The notes below the pieces were generated by a model that ran no database searches, was not told the origin of the DNA, and was given only the letters and a program-made list of their open reading frames with translations. Shown here piece by piece: positions 6,947 to 31,642 of a stretch of DNA of 31,889 nt; the stretch's first letter is position 1; each line of letters begins with the position of its first letter. Location: IMG/VR virus record IMGVR_UViG_3300042479_000390, positions 1 to 31,889 of that record; one strand, written 5' to 3'. Origin of the DNA: a virus. The position numbers were made by a program, and so were the translations under genes.

Positions 6947-8013
6947 GCTTTACACAGGGTGGAGCATTACCGGACATCACGAGCACACTTAGCAAGACGA
7001 CTACCACACCAAGTTGGTACACGGATTATTTGAGTGGCCTAGCGAACAAGGGCGCGGCGGCACTGAACGCATCAGGCGCGGCGGGTGCTTCCCCATTGCA
7101 GCAAGCGGCCTACGGTAGCGCACAGAGCACAATTAACGCGGGTGTGCCTGCACTACAACGTGCTGGACAAGAGCTGTCCGATGTGTCGGGGGCGTACACC
7201 CCAGAAATGGCGCAAGGCTACATGAACCCGTATATCAGTGATGTGGTCGATGAAGTTGGAAGGCTTGGCGTTAAGAATTTCAACGATGTGCTTGCACCCG
7301 GTGCAACCGCTGCTGCTGCTGGCTCAGGTCAGTTCGGCTCAAGACGCGGAATGGAAGTTTATGGGAAGACCGCTAACGATGCAGCGAGCAATATACTCGG
7401 TCAGCAAAGCGGCGCACTTCAGGCGGGGTACAAGAACGCTATGGACGCGGCACAGGCCGATAAACGGATTGGACTGGACACAGCGACGGGGTTCACTAAT
7501 CTAGGGCAGCAAGCCTACGCGCAAGGCGTTGGAGGACTTGACGTGCTATCTAAACTGGGCAGCCAGCAGCAAGCCACTGAACAAGCACGACTCAATCAGC
7601 CGATGGCTTCGTTGAAGGATTACGCGGCGCTGTTCGCTGGAAACATCATTCCATCAAGCACAGTACAAACAACCGTTGGACCGGGACAGCAAGGGCAATA
7701 TCAGAAGTCAGCGGCTGAACTTGCCTCGCTCTACGGCACGACATTAGGCGGCTTGTTTGTTCCGGGCAGGGACAAAGACGGAAACCCAACCGACTCGATA
7801 GCGGTGTCATTATATAAGACGTATGGCAAGGATGCTTACGAGAAATACTTTGGAAAGGGTGCTGACCCGTTTACTGAACAGGGTGGGGTTGGCATACCGG
7901 GACTAGAAGACCCCGGAACATTAATCCCATCTTTGCCGGGTGATTTTGTAATAGACCCTGAAATAACAATCCCTGATGGATTCACAAATCCTGATTTTTG
8001 GTTGGGAGCATAA
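6943..8013 (+). CDS. Internal virion protein, Ala/Gly/Gln-rich
   Basis: A 356-aa protein with an N-terminal half rich in Ala, Gly and Gln helices (residues about 35-220), including MNPYISDVVDEVGRLGVKNF and a segment GQFGSRRGMEVYGKTANDA, and a C-terminal part with Pro/Gly-rich acidic turns. The helix pattern and the MNPY...GSRR combination are familiar from podovirus internal virion proteins that are ejected with the DNA. No catalytic motif is seen. The start overlaps the previous stop (ATGA). A GGGAG near its 3' end serves as ribosome-binding site for the next gene. Confidence 0.6.
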   Translation: MSFTQGGALPDITSTLSKTTTTPSWYTDYLSGLANKGAAALNASGAAGASPLQQAAYGSAQSTINAGVPALQRAGQELSDVSGAYTPEMAQGYMNPYISDVVDEVGRLGVKNFNDVLAPGATAAAAGSGQFGSRRGMEVYGKTANDAASNILGQQSGALQAGYKNAMDAAQADKRIGLDTATGFTNLGQQAYAQGVGGLDVLSKLGSQQQATEQARLNQPMASLKDYAALFAGNIIPSSTVQTTVGPGQQGQYQKSAAELASLYGTTLGGLFVPGRDKDGNPTDSIAVSLYKTYGKDAYEKYFGKGADPFTEQGGVGIPGLEDPGTLIPSLPGDFVIDPEITIPDGFTNPDFWLGA

Positions 8014-8014
8014 T

Positions 8015-10495
8015 ATGAACATGCCAATCGAAGTAATGCGTAATCAAGTTAGAAAATATGCCGATGGGGGCGTTGTAACAGAGACTCCAGAAGAGCGGTC
8101 TATGCGGATAAACTCTAGCTTTGATGACCTGTCTAATAGGCTAACAAGAGAGATGGGGCAGGAAAATGAAACGCCAGAAGAACGGACAAGGCGCGTAAAT
8201 GAAGGGTTCCCAAAGTTAGTGCAGAGACTTAATGGTAGCTCATTGCCCAGTGATAACGAGACACCTGTAGAAAAACCAGATTGGGAAGCAAGTGTGCAAA
8301 AGGTTCTGACTGACGCTATTGTCGGTGCTGAAAAAGAGTCAGAGGTAGCGCAACGAGTTGTCAGTGCGTCTATGTTAGAGGCGGCACATCTCAAGACAGA
8401 AGCAGCAAATAGAGCAGTTGTTGAGGCGCAATTATTGGCCGACCAAGCGAATGAAAAACTTGCCCAACTAAAACAAGCAAAAGCGGAAAGGTTTAACGCG
8501 GCACATCTCAAGACAGAATCTGCTAATAAAGCTGTTACCGACGCGCAGTTATTGGCTGATCAAGCTAATGAAAAATTCGCCCAATTAAAGCAAGCAAAAG
8601 CAGATAAAACTGTCAACAGTAACAAAACAGACGTTGAAATGTACAACAGCAACGGATCAGACATCAATGAGTTTGAGGGCGATCCAGCGGCTGAAGCGGT
8701 GCATAATAAATTCTTGGCTGGTCAAGCAGAAGATGAAAGACTATCCGCCATCCGGCAAGCTGAAGACGCAAAAATGATAGAAGGGCTAAATGCCAAGTCG
8801 GAAGCATCAATGCAGAAGGCGGCAGAATACGCGGAAAGCCTACGGGGTGGCAATCCTGCACAACCCCAGCGAGAGGCTATTCCAGCATTGGGTCAACAAG
8901 CAGCGCCAGTGCAACCAACAATGCCACCCAACTCGGAAATGACCCCACCGCAACCCATGCCAGCAGCGCAACCGCAGGAGGTTGTTGCTCCAGCGTTAGG
9001 ACAGCAGGCGGCGGCACAGTCCGCTGCACAACCTTCGTCTGGCGCACCAGCCCGCGCACCGACTCCGCAACCCGCGCCGATGACCGGGATGCAGAGCATA
9101 ATGAAGAACTACACTGATAAACGGAACGCGCTAAACGCACAACAGCAAAAGATACTCGATGACCTTCAATTAAGGATAGATCAACCCTCAAACAGTTGGT
9201 TTGCTTTAGCGAAGGGGTTCGGTGCACCAACCCAGACAGGGAGCTTCCATGAGGCTTTCGGCAAAGCAATTGGGTCATATTCAGATAACCAAACCAAGAC
9301 AACCGAACAGCTCCAAGCACTCGCTAAGATGCGAATGGAGTTAGCTCAGGCTCAAATGAAGCAAACCGGGACAGATGCTTCAATGAGTTTGATGGATGAA
9401 TATTCAAGACCGCAAGGTGGTCAGGCTGGTGAAGTTGGTGGTGGCTTGGGTGGCGGGAACAGGTTGCCATTTACCAGCAATCAACTTGTTAGATTCATGC
9501 AACTTGACCCTAAGCTCGGTGAAGATATGGTGAAGGTTGTGAATGCGGAAACAGGGCAACGAACTGCCGATGCACCTTACCACAACCAGAAGCCTGAATA
9601 CTATCCAACGTCGAGAGGGATGACGCTGATGTTGCCGATACATTATGAAAAGTATGTCGGGATGACTGGCAGCGGTGATGTCGCTGGCGCGGAAAAGTAT
9701 TTGGAAAGCGTAACGCCGAAGCTGGCGACTGGCGCAAGTATGCCTACCGTGTCTGGGCAAGATGCGGCGATGCTTTCTGGACTGACACCGCAGCAAAGAA
9801 TAGCCTATCTTGAGCAACATGCCACTAATCAAGCGCGTGACCAAGCCAGCCAAATCCAGCTTGGTATAGCCCAACAGAATGCAGAGACAGCGAAATTGGC
9901 CAGAGAAGAGAGTGTGCGGCGTAGTCAAGAAATGATGTCTCCACAGGAAAAATTGGATTATCAACATGTCGTGCTTCCTGCTATTGAACAAGCGACCAAT
10001 GCTTCAAAGTTCATAGGGCAATTGAATCAACTACGCTCGATTTCAAGCAGAGCACCAAGTGGAATCATTGAATCAGGCGTTGCATCTACAGCGGGAAAAT
10101 TAACGGGTAGTGATGCAAACACGGCTCAACGAGAATTATCAGCATTGTCTGCTGGCATGATATCTATGGCTCCACGTGCACCCGGCGCAGTTTCTGACTT
10201 CGAAACGAGGAAAATATTAGACAGTCTTGGGAAACTTACCGATTCAACGTTGACGGCAAAAGCGCGAGCAACCATTATTGATGAAATTGAAAAAACATCT
10301 ATCCGTCAGTTGGAAAGGTCGAGGCATGTGGTAGATTACTTTGAAGCGCACAAAAAGGTTCCGCCTATTGAAACAGTTGGCAAGTCACCCGACAGTGGTT
10401 CAAAAACAGTCGTTAAGAGATTCAACGTCATCGAAGGACAGAACAAAGGGAAAGTGCTATATCAATACAGCGATGGCTCAAAGGAGTATAAATAA
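8015..10495 (+). CDS. Large internal virion (ejection) protein with tandem helical repeats
   Basis: An 826-aa protein. The reading frame is open further upstream to an ATG at 7976, but ATG 8015 follows GGGAG and starts just after the previous stop, so it is preferred. The N-terminus holds three spaced copies of an ETPEER-like motif (about residues 23-90), then two 39-residue tandem helical repeats (AAHLKTEAANRAVVEAQLLA and its copy, about 123-200), then a Pro/Gln/Ala linker (about 290-365). The C-terminal 250 residues are a charged helical domain (PQEKLDYQHVVLPAIEQATN) with no enzymatic motif, resembling the C-terminal part of podophage ejection proteins. It probably forms part of the channel delivered into the host envelope. 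Confidence 0.65.
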   Translation: MNMPIEVMRNQVRKYADGGVVTETPEERSMRINSSFDDLSNRLTREMGQENETPEERTRRVNEGFPKLVQRLNGSSLPSDNETPVEKPDWEASVQKVLTDAIVGAEKESEVAQRVVSASMLEAAHLKTEAANRAVVEAQLLADQANEKLAQLKQAKAERFNAAHLKTESANKAVTDAQLLADQANEKFAQLKQAKADKTVNSNKTDVEMYNSNGSDINEFEGDPAAEAVHNKFLAGQAEDERLSAIRQAEDAKMIEGLNAKSEASMQKAAEYAESLRGGNPAQPQREAIPALGQQAAPVQPTMPPNSEMTPPQPMPAAQPQEVVAPALGQQAAAQSAAQPSSGAPARAPTPQPAPMTGMQSIMKNYTDKRNALNAQQQKILDDLQLRIDQPSNSWFALAKGFGAPTQTGSFHEAFGKAIGSYSDNQTKTTEQLQALAKMRMELAQAQMKQTGTDASMSLMDEYSRPQGGQAGEVGGGLGGGNRLPFTSNQLVRFMQLDPKLGEDMVKVVNAETGQRTADAPYHNQKPEYYPTSRGMTLMLPIHYEKYVGMTGSGDVAGAEKYLESVTPKLATGASMPTVSGQDAAMLSGLTPQQRIAYLEQHATNQARDQASQIQLGIAQQNAETAKLAREESVRRSQEMMSPQEKLDYQHVVLPAIEQATNASKFIGQLNQLRSISSRAPSGIIESGVASTAGKLTGSDANTAQRELSALSAGMISMAPRAPGAVSDFETRKILDSLGKLTDSTLTAKARATIIDEIEKTSIRQLERSRHVVDYFEAHKKVPPIETVGKSPDSGSKTVVKRFNVIEGQNKGKVLYQYSDGSKEYK
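8081..8275 (+). repeat. Three-copy ETPEER peptide repeat
   Basis: Inside the ejection protein, codons for ETPEERSMRINSSFDDL begin at 8081, ETPEERTRRVNEGFPKL at 8168 and a degenerate ETPVEKPDWEASVQKVL at 8258. Spacing is 29 and 30 codons. Copies differ at many silent and non-silent positions, so the duplication is old. Confidence 0.75.
8381..8614 (+). repeat. 117-bp tandem duplication encoding a 39-residue helix
   Basis: Two adjacent 117-bp units (8381-8497 and 8498-8614), both beginning GCGGCACATCTCAAGACAGA, encode 39 residues each starting AAHLKTE and ending LKQAKA plus four or five residues. Protein copies are about 75 percent identical. The unit is a long amphipathic helix with a Gln/Ala/Lys face and would extend a coiled-coil stalk. 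Confidence 0.9.
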
Positions 10496-14580: not shown

Positions 14581-15978
14581 TTAAACTGCGTATGGGTTGC
14601 CTTGCATATCGTTGCTTTCGTCTGAATCTGAATCTGGGTCATATGGTTGTGAGTTTATTTCAATCCATCCGGTGTCTGACAGGAACCGTATAGCCTGTGT
14701 GGTCGAGTCCACGTAGTCATCACGAGTGCTATCTGGAAAGCTGCAAAGCTGGCTCAACATACCTTCTGCCCAACCTCTCACATACCCGCGCTTGGTTTTG
14801 TTCTCAGGAAGCCATACCCGGCCAGACGTGAATACAGACGCTGTTATTTGAAGCCTTTGCATTTTATCTGCCCTGCCCGGATTCCATGCCCTGACTGGCA
14901 GGTAGGCTTTCTGGAGTTCTTGAATCAAGCTAATTCCAGCAGCTTTGTCTTCCACCAGTATCATATCAGGCCGTCTTGCATCAACGCCTTCGCCGTACAC
15001 TACTCCAAATTCTTCAATCACTTTCGGCTTGAGGCTTGGGAAGGTTAGGTGCTCTTCCCAACAATCGATAAGCAGAATCGACATCGGACCATCAAGCGGC
15101 TTGAAAACCCCCCATGTGGTCATGGCCGTAGGGTCATTCCACAGTTTGTCAGTAAATGCGCAGTCATAACTCTGCACAATGTATTCAAACTTCGGAAACG
15201 CTTTCGAATGCGGCCACAGCTTGAACATCGACCTGCTAACTACTTTGCCGACCTCAAGATCAATAACCTGCCCCAATACCTCTTGGTCGTACAGCTTGCT
15301 GCCCTTGTACCTCTCTAGCTGCTTGGAAAATGTGCTGGAGAGATTCTTGATGTTTGCGTATGTGGTGGCACGGTCTATGATTACATCATCACCCTCACGA
15401 TCTATGAGTTCGAGAATCAACTCCTTGTTACGCGGCGTGGTTGTCACAATGACACGCGGACTGTCACCCAAGCGCAAGCCCATGTTCATCATGTCCCATG
15501 CCTGACCTTCTCCGAGATAGTTGAATGCTGCTAATTCGTCGCACCACGCGGCGTGAAACTGTGGACCGCGCAAGCGTTCATAAGAGTCAGCGGATATGCC
15601 GCGAATTGAACCACCGTTGGTTAGGATGATCTGATGCTCGGATTTATTGTAGGACTGGATCAATTTGCTGGGAATCACGCTTAGCAAGCCCGACTGACCC
15701 TCAAAACAAGTGTGCTTCAAGTCGTTACTGGTGGGTGCCAGAACCAAGCTCCTGAATCGATACGTCCACGCCCACCACCAAAGACCCTCGGCAGCGGCAG
15801 CGGTCTTCCCGGCTCCACGGCCAGCAAGCAAGAGCCATACGTACCAATCCATCTCCATAGGCGGCGGCACTTGATACGGGTGTGCTTTGCTAAGCCATTC
15901 AGCATGCGCCACATACGCTATTCTGTCAGCACTCGGAAGTGCCTTCCAGTTAACGCTTGATAGTATGTCAACATCCAT
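14581..15978 (-). CDS. terL: Large terminase subunit (DNA-packaging ATPase and nuclease)
   Basis: A 465-aa motor protein that pumps DNA into the prohead at the portal and cuts the concatemer. The N-terminal ATPase shows Walker A GRGAGKT at 53-59, Walker B with Asp147-Glu148 in FHAAWCDELAA, and coupling motif TTTPR at 179-183. The C-terminal RNase-H-like nuclease shows Asp272 in YDCAFTD, Glu343-Asp344 in LVEDKAAG and Asp420/421/424 in DDYVDS. Length fits Terminase_6-type subunits. Unusually, it is on the opposite strand to the virion genes and no small-subunit gene is recognisable next to it; the gene just upstream is a 31-codon membrane peptide. The ribosome-binding site is poor, so coupling to that peptide is likely. 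Confidence 0.92.
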   Translation of the reverse strand: MDVDILSSVNWKALPSADRIAYVAHAEWLSKAHPYQVPPPMEMDWYVWLLLAGRGAGKTAAAAEGLWWWAWTYRFRSLVLAPTSNDLKHTCFEGQSGLLSVIPSKLIQSYNKSEHQIILTNGGSIRGISADSYERLRGPQFHAAWCDELAAFNYLGEGQAWDMMNMGLRLGDSPRVIVTTTPRNKELILELIDREGDDVIIDRATTYANIKNLSSTFSKQLERYKGSKLYDQEVLGQVIDLEVGKVVSRSMFKLWPHSKAFPKFEYIVQSYDCAFTDKLWNDPTAMTTWGVFKPLDGPMSILLIDCWEEHLTFPSLKPKVIEEFGVVYGEGVDARRPDMILVEDKAAGISLIQELQKAYLPVRAWNPGRADKMQRLQITASVFTSGRVWLPENKTKRGYVRGWAEGMLSQLCSFPDSTRDDYVDSTTQAIRFLSDTGWIEINSQPYDPDSDSDESNDMQGNPYAV

Positions 15979-15987
15979 TGTGCGGTC

Positions 15988-16083
15988 TCATGGCAGGGTG
16001 TGGAAGAATAAATACCACGCTCCCACTGTTACCGACACCGCTAACAAGCCGACTTTTATATATTTCCAGCCACTTATGAACAT
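15988..16083 (-). CDS. 31-aa single-span membrane peptide upstream of terL
   Basis: The ATG has AGAAAGGAA about 5 nt upstream, one of the best ribosome-binding sites in the window, and the frame ends in TGA 9 nt before the terL ATG. The product begins MFISGWKYIKVGLLAVSVTV and continues GAWYLFFHTLP: a short polar head with two Lys and one clear membrane helix. Too short for ordinary gene callers but well supported by signal and spacing. Role unknown; since terL itself has a weak site, this ORF may serve to bring ribosomes to terL. Confidence 0.65.
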   Translation of the reverse strand: MFISGWKYIKVGLLAVSVTVGAWYLFFHTLP

Positions 16084-16088
16084 GGTTC

Positions 16089-16099
16089 TTCCTTTCTAA
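16089..16099 (-). promoter_or_regulatory. Shared leader motif TTAGAAAGGAA (copy 1)
   Basis: Read on the minus strand this 11-mer is the ribosome-binding site of the 31-aa peptide. The identical 11-mer precedes the SSB-like gene (19046-19056) and the 173-aa gene (19628-19638), always 4-6 nt from the start codon; flanking GGCAA-AC bases are also shared between copies 1 and 2. Confidence 0.7.
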
Positions 16100-16117
16100 A
16101 AGTGTTGCCGCTACGTT

Positions 16118-16215
16118 CACCAACACAGCTGCACCCTGAACCTGTCCGCGCCCACAGGGAAAGCGATTTACCCTTTAATCGCAGATCGCAGGAACAGGGT
16201 GCAGCTGTGTTGGTG
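16118..16215. repeat. Perfect 21-bp inverted repeat with two inner hairpins (possible structured RNA or DNA site)
   Basis: Arms at 16118-16138 and 16195-16215 are perfect reverse complements over 21 bp (arm begins CACCAACACAGCTGC). Between them are two further hairpins: 16141-16145 with 16154-16158 (CCTGT/ACAGG, 8-nt loop) and 16163-16168 with 16177-16182 (GCGATT/AATCGC, 8-nt loop). Read as RNA from either strand this can fold as a three-way junction closed by a 21-bp stem. It lies between the terL operon and the next gene upstream. There is no T-run on either side, so it is not a standard intrinsic terminator. It could be a packaging-initiation site, a structured leader RNA, an RNase III processing site or a replication signal. 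Confidence 0.85.
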
Positions 16216-16379
16216 CTTGTCTTTCCAAGCTGTCATCGCTTTCCAGTTTTCGTTCCCTCATTGCGATTGTTGAGGGCAGAGGTTGGGCGGCTTGGCAGTT
16301 TATTTACGCCGTGAACCATACCGCCGCGTGCTACGCTGATAAGACTGGGTTCAACATCAGCGCACCCCGTTATGAAAAA
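16216..16379. other. Gene-poor spacer
   Basis: No ORF on the minus strand here is longer than about 28 codons and none has a good ribosome-binding site. With the inverted repeat next to it this makes the longest stretch without a supported gene in the window (about 300 bp from 16084 to 16379). A plus-strand ORF (16102-16314) crosses it but runs through the inverted repeat, against local transcription, and is not credible. Confidence 0.6.
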
Positions 16380-30953: not shown

Positions 30954-31642
30954 TTTAGTGCTCCCGACACGACACGTAAGAACTCGGTTTTTTGAGCAGC
31001 AGTCGCAGCACTCGCAGCAGCCCACGCAGCACTCGCAGCAGCAGTCGCAGCACTCGCAGCAGCCCACGCAGCATCACTCGCAACCCACGCAGCAACACTC
31101 GCAGCAGCAGTCGCAACAGCAGTCGCATCACTCGCAGCATCCCACGCAGCAGCATCACTCGCAGCAACACTCGCAGCACTCGCAGCACACGCAGCATCAC
31201 TCGCAGCATCCCACGCAGCATCCCACGCAGCAACACTCGCAGCAGCACACGCAGCCCTCGCAACACTCGCAGCATCCCTCGCAACAGCCCACGCAGCATC
31301 ACTCGCAGCATCCCTCGCAGCTGCTCGCTCTTCATCTGTAGCTCTTCCATGCGCGAATCGTTCCGCAACATCTATTGCAGCTATACTCCTCACATCTACC
31401 ATTATGTGCTGCACCTGCCGGGCGCACCATACCGCAAACAACCTCCACTCCTTGTCATATTCAGGCGCAGCGCGTGTACACCACAAAGCATAAGTGAGAC
31501 CGTTTGACTCAACGATAACACTAAAGAGCAGTGGTTCATCGTCCGCCTCAGTTTTGTCGAGGTGCTTGAGCAGAATTTTCCATCCCGACTCGCATGGGCT
31601 GCATTTGCGTATGTCGTTTAGTGTTGTTGTAAGTTGGGTCAT
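30950..31642 (-). CDS. Phage protein with Ala-rich helical repeat tail
   Basis: A 230-aa protein from ATG 31642 (AGAGGAG upstream; the longer frame to 31732 has no site). Residues 1-105 form a folded domain: LTTTLNDIRKCSPCESGWKI, then ALWCTRAAPEYDKEWRLFAV and WCARQVQHIMVDVRSIAAID, VAERFAHGRATDEE. This front is shared by a family in other phages. Residues about 110-220 are almost only Ala with regularly spaced Asp, Ser and Trp (DAASDAAWAVARDAASVARA), a long Ala helix. Function unknown; the tail may be length-variable. Confidence 0.8.
   Translation of the reverse strand: MTQLTTTLNDIRKCSPCESGWKILLKHLDKTEADDEPLLFSVIVESNGLTYALWCTRAAPEYDKEWRLFAVWCARQVQHIMVDVRSIAAIDVAERFAHGRATDEERAAARDAASDAAWAVARDAASVARAACAAASVAAWDAAWDAASDAACAASAASVAASDAAAWDAASDATAVATAAASVAAWVASDAAWAAASAATAAASAAWAAASAATAAQKTEFLRVVSGALK
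31001..31325 (-). repeat. Ala-codon repeat tract with 42-bp tandem units
   Basis: GCA/GCG/CGC-rich tract coding for Ala-Ser-Asp-Trp repeats. The two units at 31001-31042 and 31043-31082 are near-identical 42-bp copies (14 codons, AASAAWAAASAATA). The rest is built from 12-15 bp steps such as CTCGCAGCA and CCCACGCAG, with point changes. No unique spacers, so not a CRISPR; a slippage-prone coding repeat. Confidence 0.9.

Follow-up and report, generated by a model that had tools for sequence, protein, structure and literature searches.

A conserved two-hairpin RNA in the leader of a phage terminase operon and its possible put-like action

The window analysed here, a stretch of viral DNA of 31,889 nt, carries a long inverted repeat at 16118-16215, upstream of the gene for the terminase large subunit, and the question raised by this locus is whether the repeat serves DNA packaging, as its proximity to terL had suggested, or is a structured RNA with another task. 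The repeat is real and far beyond chance. The two arms, at 16118-16138 and 16195-16215, are perfectly complementary along 21 bp, as the original prediction had it, and extend to 27 nt at 93% when the inner CCTG/CAGG is included; no other inverted repeat in the window is as strong, its perfect arm of 21 bp compares with a maximum of 14 bp in 100 dinucleotide shuffles of the window, and RNA folding gives z = -7.7 for the plus strand and -8.0 for the minus strand relative to shuffles. The arm pattern is single copy in the virus, at 16118-16215 only. The gene-poor surroundings are genuine as well, a noncoding gap running from 16084 to 16379 between a 90-aa ORF and a small ORF before terL, and an intrinsic terminator is as unlikely as was first thought, since no terminator-like site, with a G+C-rich stem followed by a U-tract, was found at the repeat. 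Using cmscan with Rfam 15 at the gathering score, no family was found for the element, and a relaxed search returned chance matches of the miRNA type only.

The window is part of a 51,766-base viral contig, G1, to which it is identical across all 31,889 bases; some 244 bases recur at both ends of G1, two of them differing, which probably makes the virus a circle of 51.5 kb in the assembly. Self-comparison also reveals internal repeats of about 80% identity at window positions 8381-8604 and 31117-31324. Between about 31.9 and 12.66 kb every gene runs on the minus strand; the relevant RNA is thus that of the minus strand, and the element falls within the terL operon's 5' leader, where the transcript runs from the 90-aa ORF through the noncoding 16379-16084 with the repeat to a 31-aa peptide ORF, whose start codon has AGAAAGGAAGA just before it, and then to terL. 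The features are as follows, L007 being a relative of the virus.

14581-15978, minus strand: terL, terminase large subunit (Terminase_6N)
15988-16083, minus strand: ORF of a 31-aa predicted membrane peptide (MFISGWKYIK...), the first ORF downstream of the element, with a homologue in L007
16118-16215, minus strand: H5, the inverted repeat, a predicted long rod-shaped RNA hairpin, from folding, the same fold in L007 and covariation
16215-16235, minus strand: H4, UGACAGCUUGGAAAGACAAGC, a 21-nt, 5-bp hairpin with a GAAAGA loop, flush 5' of H5, from L007 and motif statistics
16235-16244, minus strand: GGAAAGCGAU linker, perfectly complementary in sequence to the H5 apical strand 16158-16167
16236-16379, minus strand: H1-H3, predicted hairpins in a conserved noncoding tract upstream of H4, from folding and L007 identity
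16380-16652, minus strand: the upstream 90-aa ORF, phrog_6363 (a family that assigns no function), 89% identical in L007
7821-8348 of G1, opposite strand to the terL operon: small terminase gene terS (phrog_1482, E 1.5e-9), heading the structural operon

The genes terL (14581-15978) and terS (G1 7821-8348) thus lie in separate, oppositely oriented operons of the same virus.

The fold of H5 differs from the one first proposed. The two inner hairpins, of 5 and 6 bp with 8-nt loops, are present as sequence, but they are lost in L007 (3/6 and 3/5 pairs) while an extended rod is kept, and the three-way junction imagined from them is disfavoured, at -54.6 kcal/mol on the minus strand versus -65.7 for the rod (11 kcal/mol better) and at -54.9 versus -59.0 kcal/mol on the plus strand. 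The predicted rod consists, in order, of 20-21 bp, a UU/UU 2x2 loop, 4 bp, an nGA bulge, 6 bp, an AUUnA/GUGRG 5x5 loop, 4 bp and an apical loop with UCGCUUU. In L007 the GGAAAGCGAU linker remains complementary to the H5 apical strand apart from one bulge and one G-U, and the two may form a putative alternative or pseudoknot pairing.

The terL-linked element is available in only two distinct versions, from the window virus and from L007, as the identical region in the contigs L005 and L006 comes from the window virus itself and brings no further information. The relative L007 is independent, with 89% identity over the terL region and 72-87% elsewhere; its element is only 62% identical, yet RNAfold gives the same helix architecture and internal loops, the differences being one basal pair fewer and one extra loop base. 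In a model-based alignment of H5, 98.7% of cells are paired, with one pair broken (G-G) and one missing in L007, against just 34-43% when the structures are slid by 1-3 columns. Ten pairs are changed on both sides, so that the compensatory arm changes proposed as a sign of a functional stem do occur, in a covariation of two distinct sequences that is strong in kind and thin in sampling. The retention of the rod at 62% identity with these ten changes marks H5 as a selected RNA, and several G-U pairs in the minus-strand reading, which would be A-C on the other strand, identify the minus strand as the functional one; together with the position in the terL operon leader, these data bear out the idea of a structured leader RNA. 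Conservation extends to the neighbourhood, H4 being 100% conserved in L007 and 16216-16379 being 94-100% identical versus 72% at terL 4-fold degenerate sites, which indicates constraint on the whole noncoding tract. Among the more distant relatives L008-L020 (49-75%), no homologous element was found upstream of terL. A protein-coding reading, considered because of an 81-aa ORF across the element in L007 (523-768, plus strand), was rejected: the ORF is frameshifted in the window and is probably due to chance, and the tract is conserved well beyond the 4-fold sites.

H4 is one case of the motif UGACA-[GCYNG]-GAAAGA-[CNRGC], for which the H4 core was scanned in the viral collection and a model, R1, was then applied, giving many loci with the motif followed by a long stem. 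The degenerate pattern TGACAGCNNGGAAAGACNNGC was also scanned in viral and bacterial contigs; since such patterns preset most motif letters, variability and abundance are seen only within that frame, and the counts, more than 100 viral and more than 100 bacterial contigs from many bacterial phyla, are lower bounds. Bacterial genomes and virus records usually contain a single copy, as does the window's virus. The free arm letters (NN/NN) are complementary in 68/68 viral loci whose arms are not TT/AA, among the matches listed, with about 14% expected by chance; a figure of 125/126 includes loci pre-selected as TT/AA, the 68 loci being the unbiased set. In bacterial contigs the corresponding figure is 73/82, again among the matches listed, versus the same chance level. 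The U-G pairs of the motif occur in one orientation only, the sense direction, position 7 is always a pyrimidine, and a purine stands almost without exception at position 18. When 18 bacterial genomes were scanned with a looser pattern, extra paired matches appeared beside unpaired chance matches, and reversed control patterns gave zero matches in the scans of bacterial genomes and virus records. No Rfam 15 family covers the motif, and a text search of the literature for its letters returned unrelated sequences only, in a corpus with few subscription journals, so that an earlier description is possible.

The layout of H4 and H5, with the long stem beginning directly behind the short hairpin, recurs elsewhere. 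A long stem starts exactly at +0 after the motif in 16 of 177 non-redundant instances versus 1 of 1770 random positions, and the same two-hairpin layout, with bulges allowed, is found in mEp390, P7641, ESP2949-1 and a Pantoea phage-plasmid. The interval immediately leftward of the repressor in E. coli prophages contains a related long hairpin (CACAAC..GRAAGCGCAYUCC / GGAGUGCGCUUCC..GUUGUG), in some cases fused to tRNA-Arg; the 5' strand of this hairpin occurs in at least 120 viral contigs, with the complementary arm in 64 of the 81 instances examined. Phages swap the hairpins that flank it on either side, which makes these leaders mosaics of hairpin modules. Enterobacterial prophage leaders in which the long hairpin runs straight into the tRNA-Arg gene were noted at L436:2501-2664 and in L461, L472, L477 and L518. 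Separately, a phage RNA family in L103, L098, L087, L106, L136 and L140 has ACTATCAAG...CTTGATAGT stems that vary in their interior and can exchange their flanks, with as many as three in succession.

In annotated phages, the motif is located in long noncoding leaders at operon starts: in coliphage mEp390 it lies in the pL leader of the leftward early operon, beside the repressor, which is the putL/nutL position; it stands about 780 nt before terS-terL in ESP2949-1 and about 0.9 kb before these genes in DIBBI; Medea1, P7641, Pag-Yong1 and Rb1 likewise carry it in operon-start leaders, and in Pokken it precedes a tRNA cluster. Intrinsic terminators follow within 150 nt in 21/171 cases versus 26/528 random ones. 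Odd tRNA-like RNAs that have an acceptor stem and T-arm and lack a clear anticodon arm were seen after the motif (L330:2310, L347, L305, L306, L200, L211, L229), several of them missed by ARAGORN or Rfam, and two contigs unrelated to each other carry a HEARO RNA (L218:586-896, L350:2351-2639) at 30-50 nt on the 5' side of the motif. The GOLLD/ROOL RNAs and the HDV-like theta ribozymes are also structured phage RNAs often found beside tRNAs; GOLLD/ROOL, suspected from the tRNA neighbourhood, was discarded because the element has no Rfam match. For theta ribozymes, action on the 3' side of the tRNA has been proposed (PMC10879173), whereas the GAAAGA motif stands at the 5' side. A self-cleaving ribozyme was also set aside, no conserved upstream partner being seen, and a Y RNA (YrlA) was considered as a tRNA mimic, for which the literature search was uninformative.

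What best unites the position at operon starts, the paired hairpins, the sites before untranslated tRNA arrays and terminators, the single copy and the presence in many phyla is an action on the transcribing RNA polymerase, a universal target that would suit so wide a spread. The closest known system is put of HK022, two adjacent stem-loops, of which putL lies just downstream of PL, that work without a phage protein and contact the zinc-binding domain of the RNA polymerase beta' subunit (PMC9378689). Like put, the element is a pair of neighbouring stem-loops within a phage operon leader with no dedicated phage protein evident, and in mEp390, which annotation places in the subfamily of HK022, Hendrixvirinae, the pL leader contains it; put differs in its length of about 70 nt and its two comparable stems, against a 5-bp GAAAGA hairpin and a 20-30 bp rod in the present case. 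The reading that we favour, tentatively and at somewhat less than an even chance, is that the terL operon has in this element a cis-acting leader RNA whose action resembles that of the put antiterminators, without homology to them. Minus-strand transcription would yield a two-hairpin leader, H4 first and H5 stacked flush on it; the nascent RNA would act on the transcribing RNA polymerase by contact, and the enzyme, its termination suppressed, would then pass pauses and terminators into the terL operon in the manner of put RNA. Against this analogy, there is no sequence match to HK022 putL/putR: the HK022 early region contains no GAAAGA motif, and a putL/putR-like pair obtained there by self-comparison is unrelated by eye. 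Likewise, a scan of the window's terL operon found no clear terminator inside, and the H5 covariation comes from two sequences. A lambda-type nut site is no better match, as no enrichment of boxA was detected in the 80 nt upstream of the motif over 185 instances. With a sequence unlike put and without boxA as in nut sites, the claim is one of working alike, not of identity.

Several observations fit a different role better, and a reading rated nearly as likely as put-like action, and also tentative, is that an RNA unit, its start marked by H4 and formed by H5 or a tRNA, is excised from phage transcripts or protected within them, the agent being a host RNase (RNase III on the long stem, RNase P beside tRNAs) or a protective 5' hairpin. 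In metagenomic phages the motif is often only 3-7 nt before the tRNA 5' end, with some copies inside tRNA arrays; helices starting at +4/+5 after it are enriched, hairpins upstream of it end flush (-1) in 35% versus a background of about 18%, and a Shine-Dalgarno sequence with a start codon follows within 100 nt in 24% versus about 12%. Tandem motif-plus-unit repeats also occur: at L081:4089-4512 (minus strand), in a 322-kb phage contig, there are five GAAAGA hairpin copies; three of these belong to tandem units of 78 nt that also contain a small hairpin, and an intrinsic terminator closes the series. The predicted 20-bp stem of H5 would be of suitable length for RNase III, and phage lambda offers a parallel, where the boxB hairpin of nutL is followed by an RNase III hairpin ahead of N, the first gene; both leaders combine a small hairpin with a GA-rich loop and a long imperfect stem, the loop being the hexaloop GAAAGA here and a pentaloop, GAAAA/GAAGA, in lambda. 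Such punctuation agrees less well with the usual single copy per genome and with a motif often hundreds of nt ahead of the first gene, and it provides no obvious reason for a GAAAGA loop kept across phyla.

It is improbable that H4 and H5 accumulate as a stable trans-acting phage RNA, as a regulator, a decoy or the RNA partner of a protein. The very stable fold, the helix architecture that is so similar despite near-neutral sequence divergence, and the modular units elsewhere, some of them tRNA-like, are consistent with such an RNA; nevertheless, consensus scans found neither a promoter nor a terminator of its own, it lies directly ahead of a Shine-Dalgarno sequence and ORF, and copies elsewhere are in operon leaders.

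The packaging role initially envisaged, as a pac/cos site or a phi29-like packaging RNA, now appears very unlikely. The repeat is indeed 140 nt upstream of terL, the motif also precedes terS-terL in ESP2949-1 and DIBBI, and the phi29 packaging RNA, also of phage origin, is similar in having strong helices and a packaging gene nearby; however, the three-way junction that would resemble that RNA is neither stable nor conserved, the same motif stands before tRNAs, early operons and terminators, and, in contrast to phi29-type packaging without a small terminase, this virus has terS in a different operon, which also rules out an RNA replacing terS. A DNA-level palindrome without an RNA role (cruciform, protein site or mobile-element end) would explain the perfect 21-bp arms and is just as remote, given the G-U pairs in the transcribed sense only, the conserved internal loops, the RNA-type covariation of the partner hairpin H4 and the single copy of the arms in the virus.

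In summary, the element is probably a signal controlling the transcription of a phage operon rather than a part of DNA packaging. That the motif UGACA-[GCYNG]-GAAAGA-[CNRGC] plus a long stem represents an undescribed class of RNA antiterminators in phages of many bacterial phyla, whose direct target would be the conserved RNA polymerase, with no phage protein involved, is a wider and more doubtful proposal; RNA-only antitermination is known from very few phages. If the motif is a processing signal instead, it would serve as general punctuation in phage transcripts. A short, searchable hairpin, present in phages of many phyla and always read toward the downstream RNA, would offer a handle on how long untranslated leaders, tRNA arrays and late operons are driven, and on phage leader RNAs built from exchangeable hairpin modules.
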